A model generated the notes under the pieces. That model made no database searches. It was not told where the DNA came from and saw only the letters and a program-made list of their open reading frames with translations. A DNA stretch of 64,000 bases from Alentia gelatinosa (Eukaryota; Annelida; Polychaeta; Phyllodocida; Polynoidae), in assembly GCA_950022655.1 (NCBI GenBank), contig OX465579.1, positions 139,199,118 through 139,263,117 on the forward strand, given 5' to 3'. This document shows positions 14,641-58,130 of this stretch, one piece after another; within the stretch, counting starts at the first letter, position 1, and every line of letters begins with the position of its first letter. The position numbers and the translations under genes were made by a program.

Positions 14641-14927
14641 GTGGTCAACTGCAATAATACCAGAGACGGACGATTACTACCTTCATAATGGTCGTAGAAA
14701 CACTAAAGATTTCGATTTTTTAACTATACATAATATACCGGTACGGTATAGACTTGCATAGGCCTACATATTACACTTGTATCCATATTACATATTCAAT
14801 ACCTACCAGCTCATAACCCTTCTCATAACTTATCGATGTCAATATAAGGAACAATAATAACTACAATTCACACTTACAACTATTAGTAAAATGATTCAAT
14901 TATATTTGTTGGAATTTCATCCACCAT

Positions 14928-16880: not shown

Positions 16881-16904
16881 GATGTTGGGATCTAGTGATT
16901 TAGG

Positions 16905-17170
16905 GTCTAGTAGAGGGGCAGTATGGGAAAGGGGCAGTATGGTGGAGGGACAGTATGATAGAGGGGCAGTATGGTGGAGGGACAATATGGTGGAGGGGCA
17001 GTATGATAGACGGGCAGGATGGTGGAGGACCAGTATGATGGAGGGGCAGCATGGTGGAGGGGCAGCATGGCGGAGGGGCAGTATGGTGGAGGGGCAGCAT
17101 GGTGTCCAGAGGGGCAGTATGGTGGAGGGGCAGCATGGTCTCCTGAGGGACAGTATGGTGGAGGGGCAAT
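16905..17170. repeat. Inverted 15-bp minisatellite (GGAGGGGCAGTATGG orientation)
   Basis: Units of GGGGCAGTATGGTGGA are the reverse complement of the left-arm array. With the preceding palindrome they mirror 15.9-16.15 kb. Confidence 0.9.
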
Positions 17171-17174
17171 ATAT

Positions 17175-19260: not shown

Positions 19261-19432
19261 CAGGTGGCGGATGGGCCGCACAGTGGTAACGATAACGCGT
19301 TAACGCGATATGACCTTAACGAGTTAGAATGGTAATTAGAATGTGGTAATGTAGTAATGGTAACAAGATTAAGATGTTATGCAGATTGAAAGATAACACG
19401 GTAATTGGCCTTACCATGGTAACATGGTAAGG

Positions 19433-19540
19433 CCTGGCGTCCACCTACTACGATATGGCACCAATATGGTCTACAATTCACCTCCTGATAGAAATAAAAA
19501 AATTGACCACGTCTCTACGATTAGCACGGTAACGCGCAAC
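19433..19540 (-). mobile_element. Half of the 12.2-kb MITE inside the foldback right arm
   Basis: GGCGTCCACCTACTACGATA followed by TGGCACCAATATGG matches the right terminus of the MITE at 12,209-12,496. The next sequence, through the region around GACCACGTCTCTACGATTAG, matches its interior. The other TIR is missing and the match ends at the GGTAAC minisatellite. Confidence 0.65.
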
Positions 19541-19544
19541 GGGG

Positions 19545-20040
19545 TTAGTATGTAACGCGGTTAGAACAGTAACGCGTAACGCGGTTAGAATGTAGCGCGG
19601 TTAGAACGGTAACGCGTAACGCGGTTAGTATGTAACGCGGTTAGAACGGTAACGCGTAACGCGGTTAGAACGGTAACGCGGTTAGTATGGTAACGCGGTT
19701 AGAACGGTAACGCATAACGGGGTTAGTATGGTAACGCGTTACAGGGCTAGTATGGTAATGCGGTAACTGTGATGCAGTAACAGGGTTAGGATGCTAACAC
19801 GGTTAGAAGTGTAATACTGTAACGAGGTTAGATTGGTAATGCAGTAACGGTAATGTGGTAACGATAACGCGATAACGGGGTTAGGATGTAATGTGGTCAT
19901 AAATATAACGCATTCTTAGGTCGCGTAACGCAATTAGAATGTAACGCGATTTGATCGGTAATGTTTTCTTAGGTAGCGTAACGCGGTTGAATGGTAACGG
20001 GAAGTAACGCTATGTAACGCAAATGCGGTGACACATTTTT
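19545..20040. repeat. Right-arm minisatellite (GGTAACGCGGTTAGAAC type)
   Basis: Inverted counterpart of the array at 14,130-14,640, including matching non-repetitive stretches (CTTAGGTAGCGTAACGCGG on the right, CGCTACCTAAGAAAACGTTA on the left). Confidence 0.9.
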
Positions 20041-26266: not shown

Positions 26267-26405
26267 ATTGAGGTGGATTGAAAATGCCACGGTAATTCTG
26301 CAGAGGCGCACTCGGATGCCACCTAGCGACAAGCGGCACCCTCACCATCCATCTGGCGGCAAACAGAAGAACCAGTCTGCCGCTCAACGTTCAAAGACTC
26401 TGAAA
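26267..26405 (+). repeat. Split direct repeat A1
   Basis: Starts ATTGAGGTGGATTGAAAATG and ends GACTCTGAAA. It matches A2 at 31,111-31,249 with a handful of mismatches and may carry the promoter of the element. Confidence 0.92.
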
Positions 26406-26442
26406 GACTGGTTTACGGGCTCCGTCCAAATCCAACGAAAAA

Positions 26443-28125
26443 ATGGGTAAAGACAAAGCCAGAGCTGTGGAAAAAACGAAGAAGACCGTGGGTGCCACTA
26501 GAGAAACGACTGAGACAGTGGTCGACAAGCGACTCGATGCCATGGACGAAAAACAGGAAGAAATTAATGCCGCTCTAGAAGCAATCACCCAAGCTTCAAA
26601 GATGGCGGCTTCACATCAAAGGGCGGCGTCGCAGGGCACCGCAGCGATGGATGCGGCTCAAGGTCTCGAAAAGTCGATCGAAGGCTCAGCAAAGGCTACG
26701 GGAAGCGATGGAGGAAGTCTGCAGGCCTCTCGGGAAAGTGATCTACTGAGGATGATAGCGACCGCTGCACCATCAAATGCTTCTACAACGCCCCAGACGC
26801 TCGCGGGATCCACTGGTCTCAGCGCGGCACCTCCCGCCAACTACGCGATGTCCAGCGACGTGGGGTCCACACAAGCGACAGACCACGTGACCGCTGCCAT
26901 CCAGGCACTCAGGGCGCCCGGTAGGAATGCCGCATTCCCCGACAACATCAGGCCTACCTCCGACGTGGAGATAGAAACAGCCGTCCGCCAGATACTTGAG
27001 TCTACTATGGCTAGCGTTGCGGACGCAGGTACGCCTCCTTTCTATCCACATAAGTATGTCTTTAAAGGCCCAGAACGGGTAAAGTCAAAGTTAAACGAAC
27101 TAAACCTTGCCGAGTATTGTTGGGGCTTGTTCAGAATGCTTGAGGACCCGGCCTTTCCCGCGGCCTTTATCCCCCCCCTCTTCAAACATTTTAAAGAAGT
27201 TGTAGAGGATTCTGAAGATTTCGAGTTTGTCTAGGTACGCAGGTGGTCCGAGCAAGTGTTCGGTGCCATCGCCGAGGGCCGCCTAGCTCAGGCCTGGCTC
27301 GATGAAACGAAAATCCAGTTAATGAGTGTGGCCATATCCCAGGTCTATGTAGGCCGCCTACCGGCCGACAACGGCCAGGACCGCTCCCGTGGCAAGAAAA
27401 GGGATAAGGATATTAGTCTAGCCTCAGGCGTACCATGCCCGGCCTACAATAGGCCGTCGGGATGTGACCGGCCTACGGGCCATGGGGATGGCTTGAAAAC
27501 ATACATTCATGTTTGCGCTTACTGCGCCACTTATGTAGGCTCCGCCTATCCTCACCCTGAGACCGTCTGTCGTACAAAGCAGAGGAATGAGGACAGAGGC
27601 CCGACAGGCCTACAGAAGGCCGACCATCAGGCTCTACCCGCTCGCTCACTCTCCCCCCCGAATCCTCGCGTAGGAATTGGAAATGATGTTTGCTCTGAAG
27701 GCCCCTTGGCCGGTTGCCCGTTGGCACAACGGAGCCGTAGTCGAAGTGTAGGACGCCCGTTGGCGGACGAGAACGCTTTTGTCGACGATTTTCGCCCTTT
27801 GGCGAATGCTTTATGTATTAATCTTAAAGTTATAGGCGACGGGTGTGCACCCACCTGCCATGCCGGCCACGCTGCACGCCAGAGCGGTCCAACCTCTTCT
27901 ACGCAAGGTGGCGCCACAAGTGTCGTCGCAAGCGCGGACCTGCGTGTAAGCACCCGTGAAGCCACAGCGGGCGCTGTCTCCCTGCTTCGGCCTGCAGTCA
28001 CCGTAGCGACTCGGGGACCGGGGAAAGCGCCGCCGGCGCCCTCGCTCATCCACCCCCCAGCCTCCATGTTAGCGACAATCTTGCTAGGGGCGCCGTGGAT
28101 AGCGAATTTAACGTTGTTTGTATAA
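26443..28125 (+). pseudogene. Ngaro ORF1 (gag-like), one internal stop
   Basis: The frame from the ATG at 26,443 runs to a TAA at 28,123-28,125. A single in-frame TAG at 27,232-27,234 interrupts it (...DFEFV, stop, then VRRWSEQ). The N-terminal ~90 residues are charged and helical (MGKDKARAVEKTKK, KRLDAMDEKQEEINAALEA), followed by a low-complexity Ala/Ser/Thr linker. After the stop comes a cysteine/histidine cluster (CPAYNRPSGC..HVCAYCATY..HPETVC) that resembles the zinc-knuckle-like region of Ngaro gag proteins. It would form the ribonucleoprotein particle. The ATG lies 37 bp after A1. Confidence 0.75.
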
Positions 28126-30011
28126 AGAATGTTTGTTCTACCCCTGCCAGCCGGGATGGCGCCACCACCGCCTCTCCCGACGCCCTAGCAGGCCTCGCCT
28201 CATCCAGCGCCACTGCCGCTGTCGGCCGCGCCGCAGGCGCCCCTCGTACCAAAAGTTCTAAAAGTTCCGTCGCCCTCCGCTGCTCCCCGGACGCCTACAG
28301 CCTGGTAGTCCGCGCCCTTTGGCTGACTCCGGTAGGCCCCACATGGGCCAAATTCACTTTTTACAGAGAGGCCTACATGGCTATCGCACGCACAGGCCTC
28401 CCAAATTATCGCAGCGCTCGTATCGCTGTCCCCTCAGGACTCGCCATTCCAGAATGGCGCCACCGCCTGGCTGGGTATCATGATGAAGGCCTCATCGATT
28501 TCCTCGAATACGGGTGGCCTATGGGATACACTGCCCTTGACCCCCTGGAGGTCACCAAGGCCAACCACCCGTCGGCCGCGGCCTACATGGAGCACGTGGA
28601 CGCCTATGTGACTAAAGAGCTCGCCGCAGTCGTTCTCATAGGCCCCTTTGCTGGCCCAGCTTTTCAACCGTGGTGCGCCACTGCCCCACTCATGAGTCGC
28701 CCTAAGCGCGGCACAGTCAAACGACGCGTAATCGTAGATATGTCATTTCCGAAAGGAACAAGCGGCATCGACGGGGTCAGCCTTGGCCCGCACCTGGAAT
28801 ATGACCGTCAATGTGTCCTCCCTACGGTCACCGACCTAGCGGCCTACATCAAAGGCGTCGGCGCGTCGGCCTGGCTATGGAAAGCAGATCTCGCCCCAGC
28901 CTACAGACAGTTGAGGGTCGACCCTCGAGACCTACCACTACAGTCCATACAGGCTTGGGGTCAGTACTAGCTTGATGTATGTTGCCCGTTTGGGGCACGC
29001 CTGTCGGCCTCGGCCTGCCAACGCGCTACCTCGGCGGTCGCCTACCTCCTCGAGCCCGAGGGCTTCTGGGTACTGGCATACATTGATGACTTTGCGGGGC
29101 TGGAGAGCTCATACGAGGCGGCCGCCGAGGCCTACGCGGAACATACCACCACGGCATCGGCCCTAGGCCTCGACCTCGCCCCGGAAAAATGCCAGCCCCC
29201 GACGAAATGCATGGAATGGCTGGGCATTGTGTTCGACTGTGACTCCCTTACCTTGCGCATCCCGGAGGACCGCTTACGGGACGTGGTCGTTGCATGCCGG
29301 GACAGCATCGCTCGAGGGGCGATTGACCGCGCCCGCCTCAGGTCGCTGATCGGCCGCCTACTGTATATAACACGATGTGTCTCCCAGAGCCGCCGGTTCC
29401 TCGCAAGGCCCCTCGCCTTCCTCGCCTCCAGCCCTGAAACCGGGGCCGCCAGAATACCCCCGGCTGTCCTCGAGGTTTTCGGCTGGTTTGCTCGTTACGC
29501 AGAGGTGGCGAATGGAGTCGTGCTCATCGACCCCCCCCCCCGGGCCCTCTTTGAGGTACACTGTGGTTTAGATGGCCACGACATCGTAGGCTGCGCCTCG
29601 ACAGGGGCCTACATCCAAAATCTGGCCGGCGTTCCCTACCTTCTACGTAGTCCCGGCCGTCGCCAGGCGGCAGCAATCCTCCAGGCCGTAGCGACCCTGG
29701 GCCCCATGGCTAGCATGGGGGCGCGCATCCTAGTCTGGTCTGACCGCCCCGGGCCCGCCTCGGATATTGCTACAGGCAGGACCCGGAACCCCTTCTACGC
29801 GGCAGTAGCATGCGAGATATGGATGATCGCAGCTGTTGTCGGCGCAGATGTCAAATTCGCTACGGCAGCCCCCGGTGTCGCGTTCAAGGCGTATAACGCT
29901 TCTAGCGACGCTGCCTCTCCTGTGGTTGATTTTAATGACTTCATCGCAATTCACTGCAGGGGCGGGGACGCTCCTACACGCCAGGATGATGGCCTCGCTA
30001 GCGGCAGCTGA
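28095..30011 (+). pseudogene. Ngaro reverse transcriptase-RNase H, one internal stop
   Basis: The frame overlaps the end of gag in the -1 frame. RT blocks in order are PLMSRPKRGTVKRRVIVDMS, then LPTVTDLAAYI, WKADLAPAYRQLRVDP, a break at TAG 28,968-28,970 (after AWGQY), then PFGARLSASA and LAYIDDFAGLE, the catalytic YIDD box. The connection region follows (MEWLGIVFDCDSLTLRIPED, RLRSLIGRLLYITRCV). The RNase H-like part begins near FEVHCGLDGHD (about 29,550). It ends with TGA at 30,009-30,011. Apart from the stop the catalytic motifs look intact, so the copy is fairly young. Confidence 0.85.
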
Positions 30012-30045
30012 GGCCCCCTCCACCAGAAGGAACCACGACATCTAG

Positions 30046-30877
30046 GCGGCAGCATATATCCGCTTTTGCGTCAAGTCGTCCATCCCCTATCTACGACCAT
30101 CGGTCGCTCCCGCGGCCCTGTATCTGCAGTGCTTAGCGAATTCCTTCGCTAGCCCGGCGACGGTCGCTAACTATGTCGCGGGCGCTCGCACTTGGATTAC
30201 TCGTTATGGCGGGGACCCGACTTCTCTCTCAGCTCCGGAGGTCCTGGCGGTCCTCAGAGGCGTGCGCCGGCTATCGACCCATGTCCTGTCGCCGGCCCCT
30301 CCAATACGACTCCCACAGATCAAGATAATCAACAAATTTTTCGTCAGGGCAGGCCCTCCCGCGATGGTCCTCCAGGCTGCCCTTCTCATGACGTATTATA
30401 CATTTTTGAGAGCCTCCAACGTGGTGTCCCCCTCATCAAGCTCATGGGGGGGACCTCATACACTCACAGACTCTGACATCATCGTCACTCCGTCTACGAT
30501 GCTCATCACAGTATGGTCGACCAAGACCCGTCATTCATCCCGACCACCTCTCCGATACGCCATCCCACGCTTGGCGGATTCCTCGTTATGCGCAGTCCGC
30601 GCTTACCAGGACTACGCGGCCACACGGCCGTACCTCTCATCCGCGCCAGCGTTTCGCCTACGGAACGGCCTCCCCCTCTCAGCCAGGGCCATCACTGCGC
30701 CTAGCCCTAGCCCCTCACGGACCTGAGGGCTGCCAGGCGACCCTTCATGGGGTCAGGCGGGGTGCTGTGCATGACGCACTTGCTATGGGGACCCCTATGG
30801 GTCCAACGACACGGCTCATGGTCGACCCCATCTGGCGTGACGCCATATATTCCCCATCCCTTTGGAATTCACATTAA
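30046..30877 (+). pseudogene. Ngaro tyrosine recombinase, frameshifted
   Basis: The frame after a TAG at 30,043-30,045 reads AAAYIRFCVKSSIPYLRP, then TWITRYGGDPTSLSAPEVL (N-terminal SAM-like part), then MTYYTFLRASNVVSPSS (first catalytic Arg), HTLTDSDIIVTP and SLCAVRAYQDYAATRPYL. Near 30,690-30,715 the frame shifts by one base. The new frame continues as LHGVRRGAVHDALAMGTPM (H-x-x-R box) and IWRDAIYS (candidate catalytic Tyr), with a TAA at 30,875-30,877 inside repeat B1. It probably overlapped the RT-RNase H frame upstream in the intact element. It would catalyse insertion of the circular cDNA. Confidence 0.8.
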
Positions 30878-35174: not shown

Positions 35175-35333
35175 TTTTTTTTTTTAAATTTTTTTTATTA
35201 GGCAAGACAACAGTTCTGCACGCAGGCAGATCTTCCACTGTCGCGTGGAATCGGATGTAGACAAGTTACATATTTGATACATCGAGATCAATGATGAGGA
35301 TGGTGAAGATGACTTAGTAAACCCCCAACAGAC

Positions 35334-38189
35334 TCAGACCACGACAATGCGGGGCATCCAGTCAAATGTCGAAAAGGATTGTTTCACCACTATTTTGAAA
35401 TCTTTGACACCTTGCAACCTCTGAGTAGTCGCGGGCAGTTCATCCCATAACTGCATACCTCTGTTCATGGGCGACCTGTACGACAGGCTAGTTTTGATCG
35501 GCGTGCGTTTAAACTTTACTTTAGTTGAGCTACGCGTTAATCTCACATTCGGTTCTGTCCTCCATGGCAGTCTCGATATCTTGTGCATCAGGTTCAGCAA
35601 CGGCATATCTCTCCTAGTGGCCAATGTATCTAAACCCAACTGTCGGTGTAGCTCGGTGGCAGATTGGCGAGGGTTATGAATTTTCATCACAGCTTTCAGG
35701 GCTCTGTTTTGAACCTTTTGTAGTCTACTCATGTCGGACACACTTGAACCTCCTATTACGAAACCACAATATTCTAAAACAGGGCGCACAGCAACAGTGT
35801 AAACTTTTAGGGCCACATCCTTCGATATCCCTTCACATATTTTAGATAATTTGAAAACTCGAGAACTACTATTCCTAATCACCTCATTTATATGCTTATG
35901 AAAGTTAAGTTCTTGGTCCACAGAGACTCCCAGATAGTTGTAGCTGACATGCTCGGTTAACTCAGTCCCACAACAGGTGAGATCTAACTTTGGTAGATAA
36001 CGAAGGCTTCTTCTCGACGCACACCAACATGTTTTGGTCTTAGAAGCGTTCATGGTCATGCCATTTACGTCACACCATTTTTCGATTTCAGCAAGAGAAT
36101 CCTGTGTGTCAGTCTTGGCACTGAGACCGCTTAAGTTTGATGAATAGATAACCAGATCGTCTGCATACTGGATAGTCTTGCTTTTGGTTACCTGTTGACA
36201 CATGTCGTTAACAAATATTATAAAGAGGAGAGGCCCCAGGACAGAGCCCTGGGGCACTCCGAAGGCAACGTTAAGACGGTTCGATACTGTACCATTCACC
36301 AAAACGTGTTGCGTTCTGTCTTCAAGATAGCTCTTCACCCAGTTGCTTAAGTTATCTGGGATACTTACTAGGCTATTTAACTTGGCGTGTAGTAACGTGT
36401 GTGGTACAGCGTCGAACGCCTTCTTTAGATCGACGTGACAAATTGCGACGACCTCCCCTACATTTCGACTCTCATATAGATCACTGACAAACTCAAAGAT
36501 AGCATCAGTAGTGCCGAGCTTTTTCCTGAAGCCATATTGCGTGTCCACAAGCACGTTATTGCTAACTAACTCTTCTTCGATTGCTGAGTACACTAGCTTT
36601 TCTAATATCTTGGATGGTGAGCACAGTAAGGTGATAGGCCTCCAGTTCGTTATCTTACAAGTATCCCCACTTTTGGGGATAGGCACCACCAAGCCCGTCT
36701 TCCAAGCCGCCAGTATCTCACCAGTTTTTAAGGACGTTTCAAACAGATGTGTGAACTCTTCCAGCAATATTAACATAGCGTCTCTAATAACTCTCCCAGA
36801 TACGTATTCTAACCCTGATGACTTTGACACTATAATTTCGTTTACTAACTTTCGTATTTTTTCTTTGTCTACTCTGATCTCTTGCTGAGGAGCCACTTTA
36901 CTCTGGCCTTCCAACTCCCCTATTAGGGATTGGTGCCTTTTTCGGTCCACCTTTTCAAATAGTCTGGCCCCTACATTTGTGAAATAGTCGTTCACATAGT
37001 CCGCGGTTTTGTCAGTTTCTACCACCTCTTCTGTGCGCTCATCTACTATCGAGCATCTAGTGATATTTTTCTTACCATTCAATAGGACATCTATGCTACG
37101 CCAGAACTCTTTCGGCCTATTCCTGTTGTTTTCTAGTTCCTCGAGAGTAAACGCGTTCTTGGCTTCCCTAAGGTCCTTCCTTATTTTACAGTTTAGGAAC
37201 CGGGCCTTTTCTAAGTACTCTCTGTCATTCGTCTCCCTATACAGAGATATTAGTATTCTACGCTAGGTGATATCTGAAAAACACTCTTCAGATACCCACG
37301 GGTCCCTAGCGGTTATGTTGCATAGTTCTTTAACTGGACAGCTTTGATCTAAGTACGATTCTATCCGTTTCAGTATTAAGTCCCATTTCTTATCGATGTT
37401 CTTACAAGAGTAGAACTCGGTCCAGTCATGATCACATAAGAACCCTTCCATAGACTCTCGGCTGTAAGCCTTGTACGTTCTCCCTTTGAAGCTTACTTTT
37501 TCTTTGCCCAGCCTAGGTTTTTTCCGTTGTGCATAAACTGGCAAGTGGTCAGTTATCTTATCACTTGATACTCCACTACTCATTACTTATGGACAGTTTG
37601 TAAAGATTAAGTCGATGAGTGTTCCTCCGCTTTTGTTAGGACGGGTGGTTTCATTTATTAGTTGCCTAAGCAGGTAATCTTTAGCTAAACTTGTGATCTT
37701 TAAGACAGAAGGGCTACTTCGGTCATGCAAATTGCAATTAAAATCGCCCACTAGCCATGTTTCCGTATTAATAACTTCGCTATCATCAAGAACCTTCTGT
37801 ACTTCATTAATAAGGATATCGTAATTAGTGTCTGGAGGTTTGTAGACAGTGATTATGGTCAATTTCTTGAAACCCGGTTTGTTTATCGATAGTGTTAACA
37901 TTTCTATTTCAGCAAGGGTTACTGACATATTGTCCATCTTTCGACAGTAGGGTGCAAAACTATTGCTTATATAACAGGCCACGCCTCCGCCTCTGCGGCT
38001 CTCCCTGTCATGCCGGTACAAGGTCATGTTATCAAACGATAACATGCCATCGCTATAGCCGCTATGTAGCCATGTTTCTGTGAAGTATACGAAATCGTAG
38101 GAACCAAAAACCAGTCTAGCTTGCAGTAAATTGCAGTGGAGGCTACGGATATTATTGTGAATTATTGAGACACCCTTTGTGGTTTTCAT
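35334..38189 (-). pseudogene. LINE ORF2: AP endonuclease + reverse transcriptase
   Basis: One continuous frame from 38,189 to the stop at 35,334, broken only by TAA at 37,587-37,589 and TAG at 37,263-37,265. Endonuclease motifs: HNNIRSL, FTETWLHSGY, RRGGGVACYIS, TVYKPPDTNYD, LVGDFNCNLHD and GGTLIDLIFTN. RT motifs: TGLVVPIPKSGD, NWRPITLLC, GFRKKLGTTDAIF, HVDLKKAFDAVPHTLL, GVPQGSVLGPLLFIIFVNDM, IQYADDLVIYS, YNYLGVSVDQEL. The C-terminus is the usual thumb plus RGMQLWDELP. These make it a CR1/Jockey-group ORF2 that nicks target DNA and primes reverse transcription. Catalytic residues appear intact. The two stops inactivate this copy. The start codon was chosen as the first ATG; upstream use cannot be excluded. 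Confidence 0.93.
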
Positions 38190-39302
38190 AAGGGGGATGA
38201 GAATGGAGTGTGATAGGTCCCAAGTGAGTTATATCTCAGTTGGGAGCCTTTGACCAGTCACAGAGTCTTGTTCGCTCTGTGTCTGGCGTGAGGTTAGCCA
38301 AAATGGCCAGTGGCAATATGACAACCGACCTGGGCGGGTATGGGAGGTGGTGGGGGGGGTGGGGGGGTGGGTGTGGGGGAGAGAGAACACCTGAGCTGCC
38401 TTCCGGCCTGCATATCATTGTATGTGTTGGTCTCCTTTTATAGTGGATCAGCTTCAACATTATTTGTATCGTACAAAATAACAAGGTATATTTGTGTAAC
38501 GAATCAAGTATCTTTTACTGAACAAGAATGAAGGTGATTTTTACATGTTTTCGTTTCGATCTGCACACTAGATCGTAATCGTGATCAGGGAGAGATTAGA
38601 TAAGATTTGATACTAGGTCATCTTCATACCACCCCCAAGACTTCGACACCCACTGATTTCCAGTAGAAAGTCATCATTTTCTCAATACAATGTATACAAT
38701 TGTAACTAGGTTTACGTTAACAAGTCTTAGTTATTCAAGTGAGAGGCGCCTTTCGGCCTCCACTCACAAGGTAGCAAACAGTACCTTTTAGACGAGTTCC
38801 GGATAATACCAACGCTAATGCATTCATGTGGCTTCTGTACACCAACACAGATAAGTTACCTTACGGCCCCTTACAAAACAACAAGAAGTGTAACAAGCTA
38901 TGAATACATAAGTCAAATTTGATGATGTCTGTTCATTATATCTGACACACACAGTCTCATCATGGTCATAGTGAGGGCACCTTCCGGCCACACCTCGAAG
39001 CGAGTTCAATGACTGATTCTTTAGTGTAAGATTTTCCACTCCAGGCTGCTTGTTTGTAGGAAACAATAGAGTAAGTTACTTTTCGGCCGCTTACAACAGA
39101 TTATCTTGTCCGTGGGATAGGTAGTGCGAGACATTCGTTCATATAATGATTCTAACATGGATTGAAAAGGTAACAAATTGCCTACACACGATCCATGAAG
39201 TTTTAACACAAGTAAGTTACCTTACGGCCGCTTACAACAAGTAACAATTAAGCTAGTTCATTGTTCCTTCAAATAGGCAATGTCAGTCCATATCTTAGCA
39301 CT
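38190..39302 (-). other. LINE inter-ORF region with five repeated hairpins
   Basis: Five copies of a short hairpin lie at 38,739-38,767, 38,851-38,874, 38,971-38,995, 39,071-39,094 and 39,212-39,235. Each has a 5-bp outer stem, GTAAG/CTTAC or the variant GTGAG/CTCAC, around a core such as TTACCTTACGGCCG or GGCGCCTTTCGGCCTC. Spacing is 100-141 bp, and flanking words (TTACAACA, AGTTCATTG-like) recur weakly, so they may be remnants of a ~110-bp tandem unit. A weaker sixth core (GCCTTCCGGCC) sits at about 38,398. At 38,341-38,382 a G-rich run could form a quadruplex on the plus strand. No ORF of note. Confidence 0.75.
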
Positions 39303-39938
39303 TCAGGCCCAATTTTCAACCGACCTTCTCACAGCCCTCAGGATGATCCTGACTAATTTAGGGTACCAGATCGGGTTCAGATGGCAGCCATCTCTCAGCT
39401 TGTCATACATGATAGATAGCTTTCGGTTCTTGGAGTGCTGGATGTACACAAGGGATCCAACGTGCGCCGTGGCTAGGCAGTTTCGCTGATTGTGCTTTAC
39501 GATGTGTTGATTTGCCATTATGCACAAAGTGTCGAGGTACACCTGCTCATCGATCGACGATGGAAATGGATCATACTCACTCAACTTAACACCAAAGTAC
39601 GTGCCAAAGCAGACGTGCAGCTTCGGATAAGCATTTCGATACATCGTTTCAATGTCTTGGAGCATTCAATCCAGGTCTTCAATGAACTCACCACCAGTCG
39701 AGTACTGGAATGTAATTCGTCGTGTGCGTTTGTCTCTTTTTGTTGTGTTACATATTCCTCCACACAGGTAAATGAAGCGGAGCTGTGGCCCGGCGCAATC
39801 AACCATACGTAGTCCCACAAGACCAAGTTCCTGAAGAGACGCACCCCCAAAAGCAAATGCATCAATTACATTGTTGTCACTTCTCAGGTTGGCAAGGATG
39901 TTTCGGATTCTGGAATCTCCAATTACAATGGTTGACAT
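39303..39938 (-). pseudogene. SGNH-hydrolase-like ORF of the LINE, one stop
   Basis: The ATG at 39,938 lies 14 nt after the stop of the NADAR frame and in a different (-1) frame. The frame runs to 39,303 with a single TGA at 39,666-39,668. MSTIVIGDSRIRNIL carries a GDS block I. IYLCGGICNTT corresponds to the G-x-N block III. MYDKLRDGCHLNPIW carries the D-x-x-H block V near the C-terminus. Spacing over about 210 residues suits an SGNH/GDSL esterase. Esterase domains are known in ORF1 of CR1-type LINEs, where they are thought to act on lipids or in particle transport. Block II Gly is less clear, so activity is uncertain. Confidence 0.65.
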
Positions 39939-39952
39939 GCTTGCAATTGCAG

Positions 39953-41722
39953 TTAAGCCCGTTTAATTTCGATCAACTTAGCGCGGACGTTCTCCAAAAT
40001 CTTGCCACAGACGTTGGACCCTGGGAATTTGCGCGCTGCAAGTAAACGTTCATAAGTGAGACCACATCCCCAGTAAAGATTGGTTGTGGCCACAATAATG
40101 GTTGCAGGCGCCGATTGGAATAGCTTCACCGCCAGGTCCTCGTGTTGAAGAAACTTCAGTTCAATGAGATAACTTAGACGCTCTCTTTTTACTTCGTTCC
40201 AGGACTTGGCAACATCTATTCTCACCGTGTTCCCCAGTTTTTTCGTTTCGTAGGGGTCGTCTGATTCATAGATGGCAGCAGCAATCTCGTAGTCGCCGTT
40301 ATATAGCGCTTTTAGAAATTGATATCCTTGTTCCACAGAGCGGAAAAAGAATAGTCCGTTTGCCGTCCCTTCCTTCACATTGCATTCGATCTCCGCTGGG
40401 TAGAGATTGCTTAAATAGGCTGTTTTACCTGCAAATATACACCTCTCTGCAGTTGTGTGTATGCACTCGGGCTTGAATACCTTGGCCTGGTCAGCTACCG
40501 CACCCTGGCGCAAGGGCTCCTCCGCGCCCTCAACAGCCTGGTCAGCTGGCTCTAGCGGGGGAGGGTGCTCGTCGTCCATGGGCTCGGCCTGGGGCGCAGG
40601 GACTTGAGTTGGCAGCGGCAACTTTCGTTCCGGCTGATTGCGTTCTATGAAGTCCAGTGGTAGCAGGCTATTCGGAATTAGGTCAGCTTCGGCTAGCGAG
40701 AAGACCTCTCCCTCTACATATAGACTATCATTTTCTATGTAGGCGTTTTTCAGCAGTCTTCTCTGGTATCCCTTTACCATATGCATTAGACCACGTCGCC
40801 GCCTGTCCTCAACGGGTTCGTCCGGGGACACTGAGATATCAGAGTAGTCACTACGACCCAGACGTGGGGCAGATGCCAAAAATAAATTTCGCATAGTGGC
40901 TGTAGTGAAGCTTATTAGTACGGGAGGCGGGCGATTGGATTGTTTTGGTGTTTTGTTTCTGCTTTTGTTTAACCGTTCGATCTTGATTACATCTTGTTTA
41001 GAGATGATAAGGCCTATAGCATTGCAAATTTCGTGAATTAAACAATGCAGATCTTCTGACTGGTTCTCCACACACCCGAACAGCACCACGTTACGCTCTC
41101 TCGCAGGGGATTAGTAGACTGTATTATCATTTATACTGGAGCCTGCAGCTCGTGATACAGCGTTAGATCCCATATCCTTTCCCCAAACATTGGCGCAAGC
41201 ATTATTTACTCCAGTTGTGAGGTTCTGTAACCCGCTTTCTACATGCTCTACACGCCTTTCGAATTTGGCGTTGGTCACTTCTTGTCTAGCCATGTTAACA
41301 GCTACTTCATCCTTTATTATTTTCAATTCAGCGTGTAAAGTGGCTATCTTAGCTCCAGTGTTCACGTCTGATTGCTCAAACCTAGTGTCCATCTCTTCCT
41401 TGGTGGGCAGTTTGGTGATCAAACTAGCCAAGTAATCAATGCCACCTTGGGTCGGGTTAGCGTTTACTACACCCTGGGGGTCGTGTAGGTTGTTGACGGC
41501 AGGCCCTGCGCGCACCGCCGGGACCTCCCCCTCTACCCCAGTCATGTCGTCGGGGCGGACTGTGTCTGTCTCCTCAAACAGCGCCAATAAGTCTGTTTCT
41601 GTCGTCTTGGATCGTTTTGTTAAGTTTTTTCGCAACAAACCTATCTTACTTATGTCAGTATCGCTGGGGCTGACAGAGTTTGATCTTAGACGCTTCCTAA
41701 ACGTTTCCGGCGAGTCAGTCAT
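39953..41722 (-). pseudogene. LINE ORF1: coiled coil, RRM-like and NADAR domains
   Basis: A single frame from the ATG at 41,722 to the stop at 39,953, interrupted by TAA at 41,111-41,113. The first ~200 residues are charged with a coiled-coil stretch (AKIATLHAELKIIKDEVAV, FERRVEHVESGLQNL). After the stop, NVVLFGCVENQSEDLH to VLISFTTATMRNLFL and RRLLKNAYIENDSLYVEG form an RRM-like nucleic-acid-binding domain, as in many LINE ORF1 proteins. A Pro-rich linker (PLPTQVPAPQAEP) leads to a NADAR domain (about 40,438-39,974): CIFAGKTAYLSNLYP, FRSVEQGYQFLKAL, DPYETKKLGNTVRID, SWNEVKRERLSYLIELKF, TNLYWGCGL, FPGSNVCGKILENVR. NADAR proteins of bacteria act as N-glycosidases on riboflavin precursors or ADP-ribosylated bases. 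The conserved Glu is kept. The Asp usual before WGxG is replaced by Asn-Leu-Tyr. Confidence 0.85.
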
Positions 41723-44253
41723 GCTTACACACAGTGAGCGATAATGACCACCATCTTGCGTGCAGTCAAAACAGGCTGTGTCGGTCGACTAGCAGACAAA
41801 TCAAATCGAGAAAAGTCATCACCTACTTTAAGCCATCCAGCGATATTTTCACGTCTAGGAAATTTGGTGCACAGTTACGATTCCTCTTCACCTCTTTTAT
41901 TATTACGTCTGTATATTTTAGAGATAAACCGAGAATCAAAGCGATTTATCTCCAGAAATATATTTCTTGTATCTTGCTTATAAATAAGGATCTGGTCAAT
42001 CGTATTGTACTCCCAGCGTGATTCAGGTATCATGGCAGTCCATGACGTTTAAAGGGGACCTTGGATATATTGAAAATGCCACATATATAATGCATTGATT
42101 GATAAAAACTGTGACTCTTGTATCAAGCAATTTCACCAACACCTGTAAAGAAAGGACGAAGACAAAGTAAAGCATATACCTATACCGCGTAAAACGTCAG
42201 TCCGGTCCGATTATTTTTTATCTGCACTACATCCGTCTAATATAATACTAATACCGCTACTAGCATCATCATCCCTACTAAACCATAGCGACAACCAGTA
42301 TCACCAATACCACCACCCAACAGACATTTCACCTGATACCCAATATGTCCCCTCATTCTTGCGGTCACGTGTCGACATACGCATTTTCCCCAGGCCTTCC
42401 TCGTCAGGGAGCATTACGAGGGGACATCCAATATAAGAGCCTCCTGTTGAGGCGTCTCTGGGAGGATAGTGACGTCATTCCAAGGTAAGCGTTCGTCCGC
42501 CACAATTACCAGGGAATCTTGGCCTTGCGCGTTCTGGTCGCGCTATATTGGCCGGCTCGGAATGATGGACGGGAACGCTGGCAAATTGTCGTCTGCCTAT
42601 CTTGTTACACGTCCAGGCGAATGTCAGAGCGGCCCAGCGGTTGCTAAAAGGACGAGTCAAAGACCCGAGCGATCGTCATCGTATTTCATCTCGTCAATCA
42701 TCAGCGATATAATAGCCAGCGTATTACTCCGCTCTTCAATCTGCATATTACTCGTCGCTGTATATTGTCGTCGCTCCAACATTCTAGCCACCCGATCCAC
42801 TCACCTTTCCTTACATTCGTATTGGCCCACCGGAGGGATCATGGGTTATTGGCTGTAGGAAATTGATTAACAAGTAATTCAATTGTACCCAGTCCAAATT
42901 TGAATCAATTTGGTAATTTGTAATTGGTTCACGATTGGGAGGTACACATGTCCAAGTTCTCCGACGGTAATGAGCAGAACACTTTCGCCCGCATTCAATT
43001 GCCCTATTATTAACACAATATCGAGAGTAACGAAAATCGATCCACACATGCACATTGTTTTTTTAGCATATAGCGAGATGTAGATACCTAGATATCATGT
43101 AGACAAAGCCTGGTGAACGAGCTTTTTATTATATAACATATGGGAATGATTCGCATGTACAGTATGCAATGCAGTCTAGCATCACACCCATGTAATCAAT
43201 AGTGAGACCGCTAAACAATTCTTTTTAATATAAGTTTTCGTTATTTGCATTAAGTATAAACGTGTTGCATTATGAGTCTGTTCAGTGTGTATGCAGCTAT
43301 GACGGAGTAAGCGGATAGTGTGCTGAGAGTGATGCGATGTGTGAGGGAGCTTGCACTGCAGACCTTAATGACGCACCAGGAGCCATAACCTCTGCCGAAC
43401 AAATTCTTGGCATCTGCAGAGCAGATCTTGGGGCCATGTGGCTTAGTATAAACACACGTGTGTCAGTACACTTGGTTGATATTTGATAGTGATGAGAGAG
43501 TGGGTGAGTATATACCTCTAATCTGCATTCTGATATTTTCATACACACATTTTATATTTTACATATCTTTTGAATTCATAAATAGGACCCAACTGCACCT
43601 ATATATATATATGGATTTTATGTATACTACCTCGGCAAGTCATTCCATGGTAACATTACACTAGAGTGGACACCTTTTATAGAAGGACGTTTTCGGCCTT
43701 TTCAGTTTGATTGTTAGTCTCCCCTGGCTACGTGTCTATAGGTTTTCGGTGGGAGTGATGGTTTGTGAGTATTTCCCGATTCTATAAGTAAGCAAAGATA
43801 CTTTTTACGAGTCTAACAATAGGACATTAAAATGGTTATGTAGCTACCAAGGTTTTTGTATAAATACGTAAACCGCGGGTTTGTAGCTTCTACAGTTTGA
43901 TTTTAAGAGTGACATTTGCTCCTAAAGGGAAGTAACTTTAGTAGATGAATGGAGGCGCAATTAAGGTTTTTAGATTTGCATGCTGGTGTCTGTAGAAATA
44001 TTGCTTCTGATTTTAACTAGTTTGAACAACCAGTGGTTGCCTCTTCCCATCGTGGCATTAACACTATTTTCCCAACCGCTCCAACCGCTTCCTGCTGGAA
44101 CTTACTATCCGTGACAAGAGTTAGAGAAGCGGTTCCAGCCAAGGGTGGAACTTACTTATTTCAAACGAGAGCCAGAGAACTTGGTTCCAGCCTACCTGGT
44201 AAGTCCAGTCTATACCAGAGTACAGCCTTCCTTACCAAGTATCCTTTATAGGT
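41723..44253. other. Intergenic sequence between the LINE and the DIRS element
   Basis: The first ~300 bp may be LINE 5' UTR. The ORFs at 42,469-42,858 and 43,297-43,548 lack domains. At 44,040-44,240 the words GCGGTTCCAGC, GGAACTTACT and AACCGCT recur in both orientations, possibly part of the DIRS terminal region. Confidence 0.4.
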
Positions 44254-45387
44254 TCAACAGAAAGCGAGCAAAGCATTCGTTTTCACACCTAGTTTAGCAC
44301 CTGCAGAAGTTCCTGCCCCCCTTGTGGAATGCGCTGAGTATTTGGAGGTGTCAATTCCACAAAGGGACAAGGTGTGAATGACATATGGAGAGACAGTGTC
44401 TCTGTTAACGGGCTTATGGGGCCTTTTGTAAGATAGGACTAATTGCTGCGAGGTTCTTATATATTGTGTCGCTAACAAATAATCATCTAACAATTGTACA
44501 ATGCAGATGTTTTTACACTTTGGGAAAGGCTTCAAAACGATTGTTTTGAGTGGCTCACCGGTCTTCGCAGTCTTCATTAACTGCGTGAGTACGAATGATT
44601 TACTTCCGTTTTCTAGTGTTGTCAATTGGTCAATTGAAAGAGCTGTCACTGCTTGGCCTCGTTGGCCAGAAATTATCAAGAATAGTAAAACAAATTTCTT
44701 TGTGATCATTTCAAGTGAAAGGTTTCTGTTTTCACCCCAAGTTTCGAATGTTGTAAAGACAAGTGAAACATCCCAAAATTGATGTTATTTGGGTTTTGGT
44801 GGTTTTCTTAGATATGCAGACCTGATGGCTCTTTTTACCCAAAAAGAAGAACCGATTGTTTGACCATTCTGTAAGTTAGGGAGTAGAAAGGAAAGCGCAC
44901 AACGGGCAGTGTTGATTGAGCCAAAGGCGAAACCATCGTCCGAAAGTTGTTTTAAAAATTTGCAAACTTGAAAAATTTCGGGTTTTAGTTTATCTACCTT
45001 TTGGATATTACAAAAAGTTTCCCATTTCTGGAGATATGTATTATACGATTTCTTTGTATTCGGCTGCCATGATTCTAACAGAAAATCCGCTGTGTCTTTA
45101 TCACAATTTTTTGTCTCCACCAATTTTTCGCTTACAAAATGGAAATAATTAGTGGTAACCCTTTTTGGAACGTGTGTTGTTGGGAGATCGGAATGATGAG
45201 ATTGTTTTTCTTTCTTCCGATTCTTCTGGTCTGCTTTGCCTGGTTTTTTAACTGCGTGTACCAGACTGCGGTCGGCCAGTCTGGGGTGACGAGCGCAATC
45301 CATCTGGGTCTGTCTGTTCTTGTCTTTTTGAGGACTTTCAGTATCAGGCTGAAAGGGGGGAAGGCATATCCTTTTATATGGTTCCAA
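44254..45387 (-). pseudogene. DIRS tyrosine recombinase, one stop and truncated C-terminus
   Basis: The frame runs from 45,387 to 44,254 with an in-frame TAA at 44,785-44,787 (after RKPPKPK). N-terminal core-binding part: FLLESWQPNTKKSYNTYLQK, VCKFLKQLSDDGFAFGSINT. Catalytic part: LLFLIISGQRGQAVTALS (first Arg), then GIDTSKYSAHSTRGAGTSAG (H-x-x-R). The frame stops about 16 residues after the H-x-x-R box (GVKTNALLAFC), before the place where the catalytic Tyr should be. Either a frameshift or truncation removed it. The start overlaps the end of RNase H by 256 bp. Confidence 0.85.
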
Positions 45388-47003
45388 GAAATAGAAAAAG
45401 CATCAAAATGGCTTGCCATTGGGATTGGCTTCCAGGAACAGAAATAATCGCATTTTGCATTTCTGAAGGAAGCAAACAAATCTATGTCCGGTAAACCTAC
45501 CCAATCTAGGATTTTTGAATATACTTTATCTGATAACTGTATTTCCAAATTATCTTTAAATTCTCTCGAGGCTGTGTCAGCGAGTGTATTTTCTACTCCT
45601 GGGAGATGTGATACAATTAACCAGTTGTCCGTTTTTTCGGCCCATTCCCAAATTGAATTTGCAATGGTGTCACATGATATTGATTTTACTCCACCTTGTT
45701 TGTTTATGTACGCCATGGCCATGGTATTATCTGTCAAGATATGTATTAATTTGTTTGTTGTACGGCAAAAACTTTTCAAATACAACTCTATTGCTTTTAA
45801 TTCTAACACGTTTATGTGATCTAATTCGTGTTCCTCCCATCTTCCACCTATAGAAATTCCTTGTGAGTGAGCGCCCCAGCCGTCAAGGCTGGTGTCTGTA
45901 GACATTTCTACGTCTGGGGTTAATGATCTTATTTTTCTCTTTGAATTTTGTATGTGTGTTAACCACCATTTGATATTATCTTTTCCCTCTGGGGAAATCG
46001 TCATTGTCTTATCGTATTTCCCACAATTTTTCACAAGGGCTGCATTTTTGTCCCTTTCCAAAGTCTTTATGTGTGATAACCCGTAATCTAGTGCTGGGGT
46101 GTATGCTATCATTAATCCGACCAACATGGCGCACTCACGTATTGTTACAATTTGTTTTTCCAGGATTTCGTTTGCACAATTCTTGAATTTTTGTACCTTG
46201 TTTTCATTTAAAGTTACTTCTAGTTTTTCGGTATTTATAATAAATCCCAAAAATTGTATCTTTTTCGTTGGGGTACATACAGATTTGCCGGGGTGTACCA
46301 CAAAACCTAGAAAATCTAGGGTTTTTGCCAGCAGTTGTACTGTTTTTAGGCACTGTGGTTCTATGTTTGCGATTACGAAGGAGTCGTCGATATACCCGAA
46401 ACAATTCCCTCCTTGCTTTCAGACATATGCGAATACGGGGTTCAACAATTTCGTGAATATGCGCGGCGCACAGGCTAGGCCATTGGGTAAGACAGTGTAC
46501 TGGTACAGTTTGTTGTTCCATCGAAATCTTAGGTATTTTCTGTCAGATTTATCGATACATATTGAATAATAAGCGTCTTTTAGATCGATTGACGCCATGT
46601 AATCGTTTCTTTCTACCAGATCAATCGCTGTTGTAAATGTAGACATTTTGAAATGTTGGTATGCAATGTGTTTGTTCAACTCAGTCAAATCTAAAATAAC
46701 CCTTATGTTGTTTTCTGGCTTTGGTCTCGTAAATATGTTTGAGATCCATTCCCCGTTGGTATGGGAGGTTTCTTCTACAATACCTTTGTTTAACATCATT
46801 TCAATTTCAAGATTTACCTTTTCAATTTCGTCTTTGCGCAATTTGTATGGTTGAGGCACTTTCATTTGTATTGGTTGAGAAATGAAATCTAGCTTTACAC
46901 CTTTTACATGTTCAAGAACCCATTTGTCTTTGGTAATGGTACGCCAATTGTGTGTATAATTACGTGTTTGGCCTGCTCTGAATTTCTTCGGAGTATGTAC
47001 CAA
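45132..47003 (-). pseudogene. DIRS reverse transcriptase-RNase H, one stop
   Basis: A single frame to 45,132, open upstream into the gag end, with one TGA at 46,419-46,421 between FTKLLNPVFAYV and KQGGNCFGYIDDSFV. RT motifs: KVPQPYKLRKDEIEKV, NIFTRPKPENNIRVILDLTE, YMASIDLKDAYYSICI, VLPNGLACAPRIFTKLL, then the YIDD catalytic box and FLGFIINTEKLEV. RNase H: MSTDTSLDGWGAHSQG, INVLELKAIELYL, HILTDNTMAMAYIN with catalytic Asp and Glu in place, then LADTASREF. The polymerase copies element RNA into cDNA. The stop lies just before the YIDD box, so only a truncated product could form. Confidence 0.92.
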
Positions 47004-47071
47004 CTCATGTTCAAGTTCAATGGACAGTCGTGTTGTTTCACATACAGTTTCATACAGTTCACATACCTCTT

Positions 47072-47086
47072 CTACTTCTTTTTTTG
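47072..47086 (-). promoter_or_regulatory. Candidate -1 ribosomal frameshift site gag/RT
   Basis: The minus strand reads CAA AAA AAG AAG TAG in the gag frame. The heptamer A_AAA_AAG (47,084-47,078) is a classic -1 slippery site and sits two codons before the gag stop. After a -1 shift the frame opens into EVEEVCELYETVC and continues into the RT. No downstream pseudoknot was identified. Confidence 0.6.
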
Positions 47087-48583
47087 TGTCGGACTCTGTT
47101 GTTGTTGAGTCTGCGACTTGTTGTTGTTGTTGTACCAGGATTTCTGGTACTGGTTTCCACTGCTCTGGTACTGGTTGTTGTACCCTTGGTTGTATCCCCC
47201 TCCTCGCTGATTGTTGAAGCGGGGTTGGTGGTTGTATCGGCCGCTCCTAAACCCCATACCTTGGTTGTTGTACCGGCGTCCTTCGCGTTGTTGGTGTGGC
47301 TTCGTCTGCTTTGATTTTTCGGTAGACTGTGGTTTGGCTAATAGCTTCTTAGCCATTTTTTCCCCTTTCTCTACCTCTTTGACGGAAGTGTTAACATCAC
47401 CGAAGAGGCTCTTTGTGCTGAGCGGTGCGTTGATGGTGGCGTCTGCTAGGTCCCGCGCCAGCTTAGGGCGGAATGCTTCCCGTCGTCTCTTTGTTATTAG
47501 TGAATTCGCTATGAAGAGGAGTCTGATTCCGTCTACTGCGGATTCAGACGCTTTGTTGAGTTCTTCGTCTTCCGCTCCTCGTTTAAACGCAAGTTCAAGG
47601 AAAGGCAGAATTGCGGAATAGGAGGCCATCATGGCCTGTGTGGCGTGCACCAATTGTAAATCCATTTTCTTTAAGTGGGAGTCAATCTCCTTCGAGTTCT
47701 TGAACCCCTCGTCCATAAGGTGCACGGTCATGTTGTGCACATTCAATGGCGGTGGATATTTCTCCATGAGGGCTTTTGCATCCTTCACTTCTATTTGTGC
47801 GTTGTGGTATGAGTCAATGAGACCTGCCAAAGAGTCATCGATAGCTGGCGAAGATTTTGGTTTTTCGATGTCGGCAAACCTGGAAATTCCGGCCGTGGTA
47901 ATGGCCCCAGGTTTGGCTGTTGCGAAGTGGTCTTTCTTCTTTTCCTTTGTCTCTGAGGCCGCGGCCTCATTAACGGTCGCGTCCCCTTTAGCGTCCTCCT
48001 CCACAGGGGGTTGTTGTTTTAGGGGTACGGGGTTCACCCGCGTACCCTGCATGGGTTCCGCGTCACTTGCCTTGTTTTCAGAAATAGAATCCGCAATTTT
48101 TTCGTCATTTCTTTGCGAATTTTTTACCGTAGATGTGTCCGGCATCGCATCTTCCAATTCAAATTTGGTTGAAGTACGGTATTTATGAATAGCGACTGGA
48201 GGAATTGAAGACCCAATCCTCCTTGAAGAATCGCCTTGGGGTCCGTTAATGGCGTCTCCTGCCTGCTCCTTTGTCCTGGAGCTACACCTTGTGCTGCGTT
48301 CACTCTCGGCGTGGGAGACGTGTGACGAGCTTTCACACTCAGAAGGTGTTGCAATTACGCGACGGACCTTCTTAGTCATTCTCTTCTTTCTTGGTCTCTG
48401 CTCTTCTACTGAGGAGTCAGATTCCAAAAGGGGGTGTCTCTTTGACCCTTTCTGTTGACACTCATCGGCGGCCATTACTGGTCCCTTTGAGGTAGAAGGT
48501 ATCGGTGAATCGTCCTTGGATTTATCCGCGGATTTTTCATTTTTCTTAATTAGTTCAGCCTTCGCTTGAAGTGCCGACATCAT
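47072..48583 (-). CDS. DIRS ORF1 (gag-like), intact
   Basis: The 503-residue frame starts MMSALQAKAELIKKNEKSAD and has no internal stop. The N-terminal third is disordered and Ser/Lys-rich with a basic patch (PRKKRMTKKVRRV). A helical central domain (about residues 255-400: LAGLIDSYHNAQIEVKDAK, MMASYSAILPFLELAFKRG, IRLLFIANSLITKRRREAF) resembles the capsid-like core of DIRS gag proteins. It ends in a Gly/Asn/Gln-rich tail (RGGGYNQGYNNQYQSSGNQY) of nucleic-acid-binding type, followed by A_AAA_AAG and TAG. It would package the RNA. It is the only uninterrupted long frame among the retroelements here. Confidence 0.8.
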   Translation of the reverse strand: MMSALQAKAELIKKNEKSADKSKDDSPIPSTSKGPVMAADECQQKGSKRHPLLESDSSVEEQRPRKKRMTKKVRRVIATPSECESSSHVSHAESERSTRCSSRTKEQAGDAINGPQGDSSRRIGSSIPPVAIHKYRTSTKFELEDAMPDTSTVKNSQRNDEKIADSISENKASDAEPMQGTRVNPVPLKQQPPVEEDAKGDATVNEAAASETKEKKKDHFATAKPGAITTAGISRFADIEKPKSSPAIDDSLAGLIDSYHNAQIEVKDAKALMEKYPPPLNVHNMTVHLMDEGFKNSKEIDSHLKKMDLQLVHATQAMMASYSAILPFLELAFKRGAEDEELNKASESAVDGIRLLFIANSLITKRRREAFRPKLARDLADATINAPLSTKSLFGDVNTSVKEVEKGEKMAKKLLAKPQSTEKSKQTKPHQQREGRRYNNQGMGFRSGRYNHQPRFNNQRGGGYNQGYNNQYQSSGNQYQKSWYNNNNKSQTQQQQSPTQKKK

Positions 48584-49400
48584 GCATGCCAGGTATTAGA
48601 CTCTAATCCAGTAATTGAGTACTAATCCTGTATTCTTAAGTAGGTAGGAGTTGAGGCCAGCCTCTATCCTCCGCAGCGATGCTACAACAAAAAAACAAAC
48701 CAAAAGGTTAGTTTTCTGTATGATACAATTTTAAAAACATACCTAAAACAAGTAAAGGTATGTCTTTTACTTAATTATAACAAATAACATAATTGCGGTA
48801 ATTAAAAGTAATTCATAATGGGCTTAACCCTTACCTTGCTCTATTGTACGTCTGACCTCTCTCGGTGTTCGCGCGTTACTGACTAATCACAAAGCTCATC
48901 TTCCCTGTATTCTGGGGCGACAGAAAATAGTCTGTAGTGAGTAGGAACCTGAGTAGATTCTGGTGGTCTTTCTATCCGCATCACCAGCGGAGGGGTGAGC
49001 AGTCTGGTCTGCCAGGGGCCACACTGTTCTGTGGAGCAGAGCATTTTCTATGCTTACATCTATTTGTTGAGCCTCTGGGGCGGAGGCGCCTGCAAGTACC
49101 TCCCTCTCGTAGGCTGCTGTTCCTACCACGCTTCCTCAAGAAGCCGACATTGTAGATCAAGAAGCCCATGTGCTTAAAACACAAAATGTCTTTCTCAAGG
49201 GCTGGCCTTTCTGAATACTAAAACCATGACTGGGTAGCCACCTCCTTCAGACACTCTCTCTTTCCAGTGTATCCTCGTACCATCGGCTGATGCAGTTAAA
49301 CAATTTGAGTATTTCCGCCTGAGTTAGTGCTACTATCTGTCTCCTCCTTTAGAGATCTGACTCTCCAGAATGTCTCCTTGCTGGCCCACCCACTAATCAG
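48584..49400. other. DIRS 5' region and intergenic sequence
   Basis: 48,584-48,900 probably contains the leader of the DIRS element, but its end was not located. No ORF is supported. Confidence 0.35.
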
Positions 49401-57394: not shown

Positions 57395-58130
57395 CCTGCC
57401 TGTTGAACTTGGTATACCACAGAGCTCGGTTTTAGGTCTACTACGTTTCATTATTCTTATAAACGAAATATTCTAGATTTTATAGCAAGCAGATGTAATC
57501 ATGTATGCCGATGACCTTATCTTTTTAGTAAATGAGAAGAACACTGATATCGTTATAAATAGATGTAATAAACCAATTTCAAATTGAAAAAGGTTGACAG
57601 TCAATATGACAATATCAAACCTTGTGTGGATTGTAGCTTGTAATGTGAACTTAAGTTGTTATAAAACTGAACACCCACTCAAAGTGGTAAACAGCTATAC
57701 CTATCTAGGGGTACTCATCAATTACAGGTTAAATTTCAATGACCATGTAGAAAAGCCAGTCAGAGAAGTATGACTTAGATGGTACAAACTATGCCAAATA
57801 AGACATAGATCTCATAAACACAGCTCTTGCTATGAAAGTGGTAAAACAGATGATTATACCCGATAGAAGATATCAATTTTTTATTCAGCTGTATTAGTGC
57901 CAGAAACAGATTTTGTTAGCAGATGATTGTTAACAACTGCTTACATATGGCCCTGTCTATAGATAGGATCACAGACATTCATGTCCTAGACTTAAATGAA
58001 CGTGTTTGTATGCAACCTCTTTGTCATGGTAAGGCAATTAGTGAATATTCACTCGGGACATGTGACAAGGTCAAACCTGAAAACAGCCATAAAACTAAAA
58101 CATCTTAAAACCGAGCAATACACAGTCCAC
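57395..58130 (+). pseudogene. Decayed LINE reverse transcriptase fragment
   Basis: The plus strand gives NLPVELGIPQSSVLGLLRFI, then ADVIMYADDLIFLVNEKN (YADD box), NSYTYLGVLINYRLNFNDHV, and later MKVVKQMIIP, QMIVNNCLHMALSIDRITDI and HVLDLNERVCMQPLCHG. These are RT motifs 4 onward and the C-terminal region of a CR1/Jockey-group LINE, scattered over frames by indels and stops. N-terminal RT motifs and the endonuclease are missing. Confidence 0.75.

Follow-up and report, generated by a model that had tools for sequence, protein, structure and literature searches.

A NADAR domain on ORF1 and a separate SGNH esterase-like frame in a LINE of the annelid Alentia gelatinosa

The window analysed here is a stretch of 64,000 nucleotides from Alentia gelatinosa (contig OX465579.1, positions 139,199,118 to 139,263,117 of the forward strand), and its minus strand carries a long interspersed nuclear element (LINE). 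As judged from its sequence, this element is a decayed copy of a three-gene LINE, in which the first open reading frame (ORF1) ends in a NADAR domain, a frame of its own encodes an SGNH esterase, and ORF2 encodes an endonuclease and a reverse transcriptase (RT). The SGNH ORF, which lies between ORF1 and ORF2, was absent from the first-pass annotation of this DNA. The whole copy and its parts are as follows.

35175..41888, minus: whole LINE copy of about 6.7 kb, its two ends set where the DNA match to the contig C14 copy stops
41723..41888, minus: 5' leader, with the C14 identity beginning at 41888
41114..41722, minus: N-terminal part of ORF1 (coiled coil), assigned from the frame and from the match of residues 98-203 to locus L029 (tblastn)
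41111..41113, minus: in-frame stop (TAA) interrupting ORF1 in the window copy, with no stop there in the C14 copy
40469..41110, minus: L1-like RNA recognition motif (RRM)/C-terminal domain (CTD) region of ORF1 and Pro-rich linker, from tblastn to loci L029 and L030 and a family profile against 2yko
39974..40426, minus: NADAR, the C-terminal domain of ORF1 (ORF1 ends at 39953), from Pfam PF08719
39303..39938, minus: SGNH/GDSL esterase-like frame of its own, interrupted by a single in-frame TGA (39668-39666), from a family profile against 4c1b
38190..39302, minus: inter-ORF stretch lacking any long frame and containing six GGCCGNAARG motifs; the C14 copy has this stretch too
35334..38189, minus: ORF2, with APE-type endonuclease and reverse transcriptase and stops at 37589-37587 and 37265-37263, from Pfam and frames
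35175..35333, minus: 3' untranslated region and A-rich tail, from the sequence and the end of the C14 identity

The assignment of the element as a LINE draws on the RT and APE-type endonuclease in ORF2, the dispersed copies and the A-rich 3' end. The copy on contig C14 matches it with 97.0% DNA identity over 3434 nucleotides (41888-38456) and 96.1% over 3506 nucleotides (38672-35175); as it contains ORF1, ORF2 and the intervening space, the idea that ORF1 and ORF2 are two unrelated insertions was rejected. In a search for a target-site duplication, no exact repeat of at least 10 nucleotides was found between the 3' flank and the upstream region, and nothing useful came from a search of Rfam or of viral contigs. 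All three genes of the window copy are interrupted by stops, and this copy itself appears to be inactive. The C14 copy is also decayed, with an ORF1 start that is out of frame, a fragmented ORF2 and Arg in place of the SGNH His; its ORF1 and SGNH frames are open at the sites of the window's stops, and it has Glu at the NADAR catalytic position.

The first-pass annotation had described one frame, 41722-39953, running from a coiled coil through an RRM-like domain into a complete NADAR domain. Continuity of the RRM and NADAR parts is supported here, whereas the TAA at 41113-41111 separates the coiled-coil part from them. The NADAR domain occupies residues 229-379 of the 385 in the frame 41110-39953 (minus), and its completeness is confirmed by a match to PF08719 (E 9.6e-22; 78.4 bits, where the curated cut-off is 35.1; positions 9-162 of the 163 in the profile) and by matches in the PDB to the NADAR 8bau (E 7.1e-7) and to YbiA (2b3w, E 8.8e-5). 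For the region ahead of it, placement as a LINE ORF1, as had been proposed, is confirmed by way of relatives. The RRM and linker region shows 38.6% identity to L029 and 35.0% to L030 (tblastn), and a profile built from 10 open ORF1s of this genome, excluding that of the window copy, matches the RRM region of human LINE-1 ORF1p (2yko, E 1.1e-4), YbiA (E 5.7e-25) and, more weakly, helical and coiled-coil chains. From these profile matches follows a layout of coiled coil, L1-like RRM region, linker and NADAR. The RRM part of the window alone gave no Pfam match, and protein-database searches with the window ORF1 part and with NADAR alone returned none at E 1e-3.

The SGNH ORF of the window likewise had no Pfam match when searched alone. 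Its identity is nonetheless clear, because a profile of 12 SGNH ORFs has as its top PDB match the esterase of the ZfL2-1 LINE (4c1b, E 1.2e-5) and because Lipase_GDSL_2 is matched by five of these 12 members (best 1.1e-7; the window member not among them). The window ORF has S9, D183 and H186. Across the SGNH blocks of 16 sequences, Ser and Asp are present in all 16 and Gly and His in 15 each, the C14 copy having Arg for His; the Asn block is GIN or GTN in 11 of the 16, but in the five of the window's group it is altered to GGVC or GGIC, which makes the Asn doubtful in these.

ORF2 of the window matches Pfam RVT_1 (E 1.3e-36) and Exo_endo_phos_2 (E 1.2e-5), the latter at 25.6 bits and thus slightly below the cut-off of 27.4, which is exceeded by the endonuclease of its relative L017. 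The element is likely a CR1-group LINE, on the basis of an RT motif that we take to be characteristic of that group; an A-rich tail is atypical of CR1/L2 elements. Few close copies were detected when 1.1 kb from the RT and 3' end served as a DNA query; identity was 95-96% at two places, one of them partial.

The genome as searched comprises 1.234 Gb in 101 contigs, and within it the combination of NADAR and LINE recurs widely. All 150 of the NADAR matches scored, from 3136 first-look candidates, lie above the cut-off, and 93 of them sit in open frames of at least 500 residues. Searching with the window ORF1 part yielded 126 matches from the 107 candidates scored out of 3238, led by the window itself and followed by matches of 95%, 54% and lower identity, with many in frames of 540-640 residues. 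Twenty of the 150 NADAR loci, picked for differing frame lengths, were extracted with their flanks. In 18 of them, NADAR is the C-terminal part of an ORF upstream of a LINE RT. Thirteen have ORF1-NADAR, the SGNH ORF and endonuclease-RT (L016, L017, L019, L020, L022, L024 to L030 and L034), and all three frames are unbroken in eight of these (L017, L019, L020, L022, L025, L027, L028 and L030). Five loci (L018, L021, L023, L032 and L033) are another LINE type with NADAR, presumably L1-group by RT motif, and its ORF2 has 1250-1292 residues in L018, L032 and L033. Between ORF1 and the endonuclease or ORF2, no ORF of 150 residues was found in L018, L021, L032 or L033, and one of 172 residues was found in L023. 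No RT was seen at the remaining two, L015 and L031. The first-pass annotation had named a one-off insertion as the case that would overturn it; that candidate was rejected, since many other copies carry the domain. The pairing can also be read from the RT side: of the 68 RT relatives listed, at least 19 are preceded on their own strand, at a distance of 1.5-6 kb, by a listed ORF1 or NADAR match, where 0.03 would be expected by chance; this count used the places listed by both genome searches, the window's own omitted.

Active-site residues can be placed onto these domains. Papers are cited here by their PMC numbers. The residues were taken from Schuller et al. (PMC11543638) and transferred through alignment of the window NADAR with PDB NADARs. 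The set from the genome holds 88 domains, L015 and L031 included and five places fetched twice, and yields 80 distinct strings, a few of which may stem from one place; most of its short pieces are known by the domain only and not by the carrier element. Among the 80 strings, E43 is conserved in 80, K50 in 74, W89 in 80, the catalytic E125 in 79 and W133 in 78. The single exception at E125 is the window copy, where Glu is replaced by Val, and a catalytic Val as a trait of LINE NADARs was rejected because it is confined to this copy. With this Val and stops in three genes, the suggestion of a functional NADAR in the window copy is not sustained.

Related copies keep both the NADAR and SGNH genes under purifying selection. 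The ratio of nonsynonymous to synonymous substitution (dN/dS) was computed for 82 NADAR domains (3321 pairs, six double-fetched or identical rows dropped), with pairs of at least 120 codons and dS of 0.1-1.2 regarded as usable. In all 12 usable pairs, which we judge to amount to about four independent comparisons, NADAR dN/dS was 0.13-0.19. Between L022 and L028, it was 0.06 for NADAR (dS 1.57), 0.14 for the rest of ORF1, 0.06 for SGNH (dS 1.71) and 0.07 for ORF2 (dS 1.88); per gene, many pairs other than this one were saturated. The first-pass annotation had proposed values below 1 as a check of selection, and those for NADAR, at 0.06-0.19, agree with it.

The phylogenies of the domain and of the RT share three main clades. 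With the window and 15 loci as rows (L015, L016, L023, L026 and L031 omitted), both trees contain these clades, each of them starred: the window with L029 and L030; L019 with L020 and L027; and L017 with L022, L024, L025 and L028. The window RT stands apart from those of L018, L021, L032 and L033 with support of 100/100, the rows of these four being less than half filled. A larger NADAR tree, with 72 rows after thinning at 85% identity, groups the three-gene loci and L031 in a clade of 41 rows (98/89) and the other LINE type in a clade of 10 rows (100/99), with many rows of both clades known by NADAR alone. A single clade for both LINE groups is not rejected (p-AU 0.336), the groups having been named after the tree was seen; NADAR may thus have been acquired once or twice.

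Some NADAR loci depart from these two LINE types. L015 (G000:C11:13145000-13154000) has a NADAR frame of 242 residues that is the best match in the genome and is placed among bacterial NADARs; it could be a host gene or a transfer. L031 (G000:C5:15167300-15176800) has a frame of 1014 residues that is still open where the fetched sequence stops; the frame matches LRAT, includes repeats and ends in a NADAR. With no RT match nearby and with its NADAR inside the 41-row clade of three-gene LINEs, it is perhaps a host gene that acquired its domain from a LINE, or else the source from which LINEs took theirs. L048, L049, L056, L088 and L089 represent a separate NADAR clade with the motif PLFEAT.KDP.WGCG, three of the five rows being in the tree.

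The inter-ORF stretch of the window has its six GGCCGNAARG motifs at 39240-38390 (minus), several of which can form hairpins with paired flanks. The motif occurs five times in the C14 copy, once in L030 and in none of 12 other loci. Other GNRA stems number two to four each in L017, L022, L024, L025 and L028; GNRA-type stems exceed those of shuffled sequences in these five loci and in the window and number 0 or 1 in eight of 15 loci. Elsewhere in the window, frames at 26404-30726 and 44254-48595, judged by eye from their translations, resemble DIRS/Ngaro-type retroelements (RT, tyrosine recombinase). Tandem arrays of 16-nucleotide and 40-nucleotide units lie at 14331-19767 and recur on the opposite strand around a 356-nucleotide tandem repeat. 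Two more RT fragments, at 7628-6981 and 57396-57800, show 29-30% identity to the RT of the window LINE.

When these results are set against the known chemistry of the family, a role for the domain can be proposed. In DNA, NADARs undo the ADP-ribosylation of guanine (PMC11543638); in RNA, they alone among the hydrolase families tested remove ADP-ribose from guanosine bases (PMC11833690). It can be hypothesized that the ORF1 protein (ORF1p) would coat the RNA of the element through its coiled coil and RRM, that the tethered NADAR would hydrolyse ADP-ribose off the guanine bases of this RNA or of the new complementary DNA (cDNA), and that the RNA or cDNA so treated would remain a good template; the SGNH esterase might mediate contact with membranes or lipids, as has been suggested for ZfL2-1. 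As NADAR is fused to an RRM-bearing ORF1p and published NADAR substrates are guanine linked, action on the RNA or cDNA of the element is the simplest reading. We give about even chances to a three-gene LINE whose ORF1p-borne NADAR de-ADP-ribosylates the element's own RNA or cDNA by such a mechanism. More doubtful, although conceivable, is the wider proposal that the RNA particles of an abundant LINE class contain NADAR as an enzyme of nucleic-acid repair, which would free guanines of the LINE's own RNA or cDNA from ADP-ribose, and that the three-gene layout is a distinct LINE architecture common to several deep lineages. This would imply a host defence in which the nucleic acid of transposons is marked by ADP-ribosylation of guanine.

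Several observations weigh against action on the nucleic acid of the element. Only 11 of the 80 strings have Arg at R79, which contacts phosphate, and 61 have Asp at D130, which could mean a shift of substrate; in 73 aligned database NADARs (of 120 listed), E125 and D130 are present in all 73 and R79 in 72. Among the 68 listed RT relatives, 49 have no listed NADAR within 6 kb upstream, a number that is an upper bound because it counts listed matches only. Some of these may be true elements without NADAR; of two that were inspected, one ends inside NADAR, and the other, which is the closest RT relative listed (63%), lacks a visible ORF1 across the 2 kb inspected. A pierisin-like (guanine-modifying) transferase was not found in the genome, a search in which no control genome gave a signal either; clams possess a guanine-N2 ADP-ribosylating activity on DNA (PMC11209040). 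NADARs of oyster Tx1 elements, described below, imply that use of the domain is broader than the three-gene layout.

The changes at R79 and D130 also suit an enzyme acting on a small molecule, be it a free ADP-ribose derivative or signal or a riboflavin intermediate. Such action has been proposed for most phage NADARs (PMC9503650), and riboflavin intermediates are substrates of bacterial and plant NADARs (PMC11543638). A free enzyme is not what is found, however, as in 18 of 20 loci the domain forms the end of an ORF that precedes a LINE RT, and the RRM of ORF1 would bind RNA; we regard a small-molecule substrate as unlikely, though a serious candidate. It is improbable that NADAR removes ADP-ribose from proteins or from ORF1p and so counters a PARP-type response in the manner of viral macrodomains. 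Nucleic acid is the better guess, because published NADAR activity is directed at guanine- or guanosine-linked ADP-ribose in DNA and RNA (PMC11543638, PMC11833690). The retention of the pocket residues E43, K50, W89 and W133 in 74-80 of the 80 strings could also reflect a non-catalytic reader of ADP-ribose that targets or times insertion at ADP-ribosylated nicked DNA, but a catalytic Glu in 79 of 80 is more than a pure binder requires, and this is quite improbable. Finally, a broken window copy that has lost the catalytic Glu is what a hitchhiking or chance insertion useless to the element might leave behind. The passing of all 150 scored matches, the eight unbroken three-gene loci and dN/dS of 0.06-0.19 oppose this strongly and make it hardly credible.

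For the three-gene LINE with an ORF1p-borne NADAR acting on element RNA or cDNA, the implications are worth stating. A LINE with a selected NADAR and an esterase may protect its own nucleic acid. The roles of NADARs unpaired with a toxin are poorly understood (PMC11125620), and a selected NADAR with its catalytic residue, placed on a retrotransposon RNA-binding protein, allows nucleic-acid ADP-ribosylation to be put to the test in an animal-like genome. A LINE with two accessory enzymes would be evidence that such elements carry cargo beyond a packaging protein and a polymerase.

Among the top-ranked open-licence papers, no report was found of NADAR on a CR1/L2-like LINE, nor of NADAR-ORF1 with a separate SGNH ORF (the three-gene form); related systems share single features with the element. 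The DarT1-associated and YbiA NADARs (PMC11543638) belong to the same domain family and have most pocket residues in common with it, but they are stand-alone antitoxins or metabolic enzymes, and R79 and D130 are often changed in the NADARs of this genome. Type II ORF1s of L2/CR1 lineages (coiled coil, L1-like RRM, CTD) show the same N-terminal layout as the window element, and the text of that study nowhere mentions NADAR (PMC4120745).

Esterase ORF1s occur in ZfL2-1 and other CR1, L2 and RTEX elements (PMC3905857; structure 4c1b). ZfL2-1 resembles the window element in having an SGNH esterase on a LINE, and its structure is the top PDB match of the SGNH profile. In elements of that type the esterase lies inside ORF1p, and no esterase-containing ORF1p in Repbase was reported to have an RRM (PMC3905857), whereas in the window it is an ORF of its own next to an RRM-bearing ORF1 with NADAR. 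An esterase as a separate accessory ORF is likewise known from the GDSL ORF3 of long terminal repeat and Penelope-like elements of bdelloid rotifers, although these are different element classes and NADAR is nowhere mentioned in the text (PMC5408684).

The closest precedent for the fusion itself is the report of NADAR on ORF1s of Tx1 LINEs of Crassostrea gigas and on the Pol of Ectocarpus Gypsy elements (PMC12477816). The oyster elements share with the window element a NADAR on the ORF1 protein of a retroelement, while in Ectocarpus the domain is on Pol. The LINE type of L018, L021, L023, L032 and L033 may be of the same kind as oyster Tx1. The window element differs in its RT, which reads GVPQGSVLGPLLF where L032 and L021 have GTRQGCCLSPYLF, and in its additional SGNH ORF.
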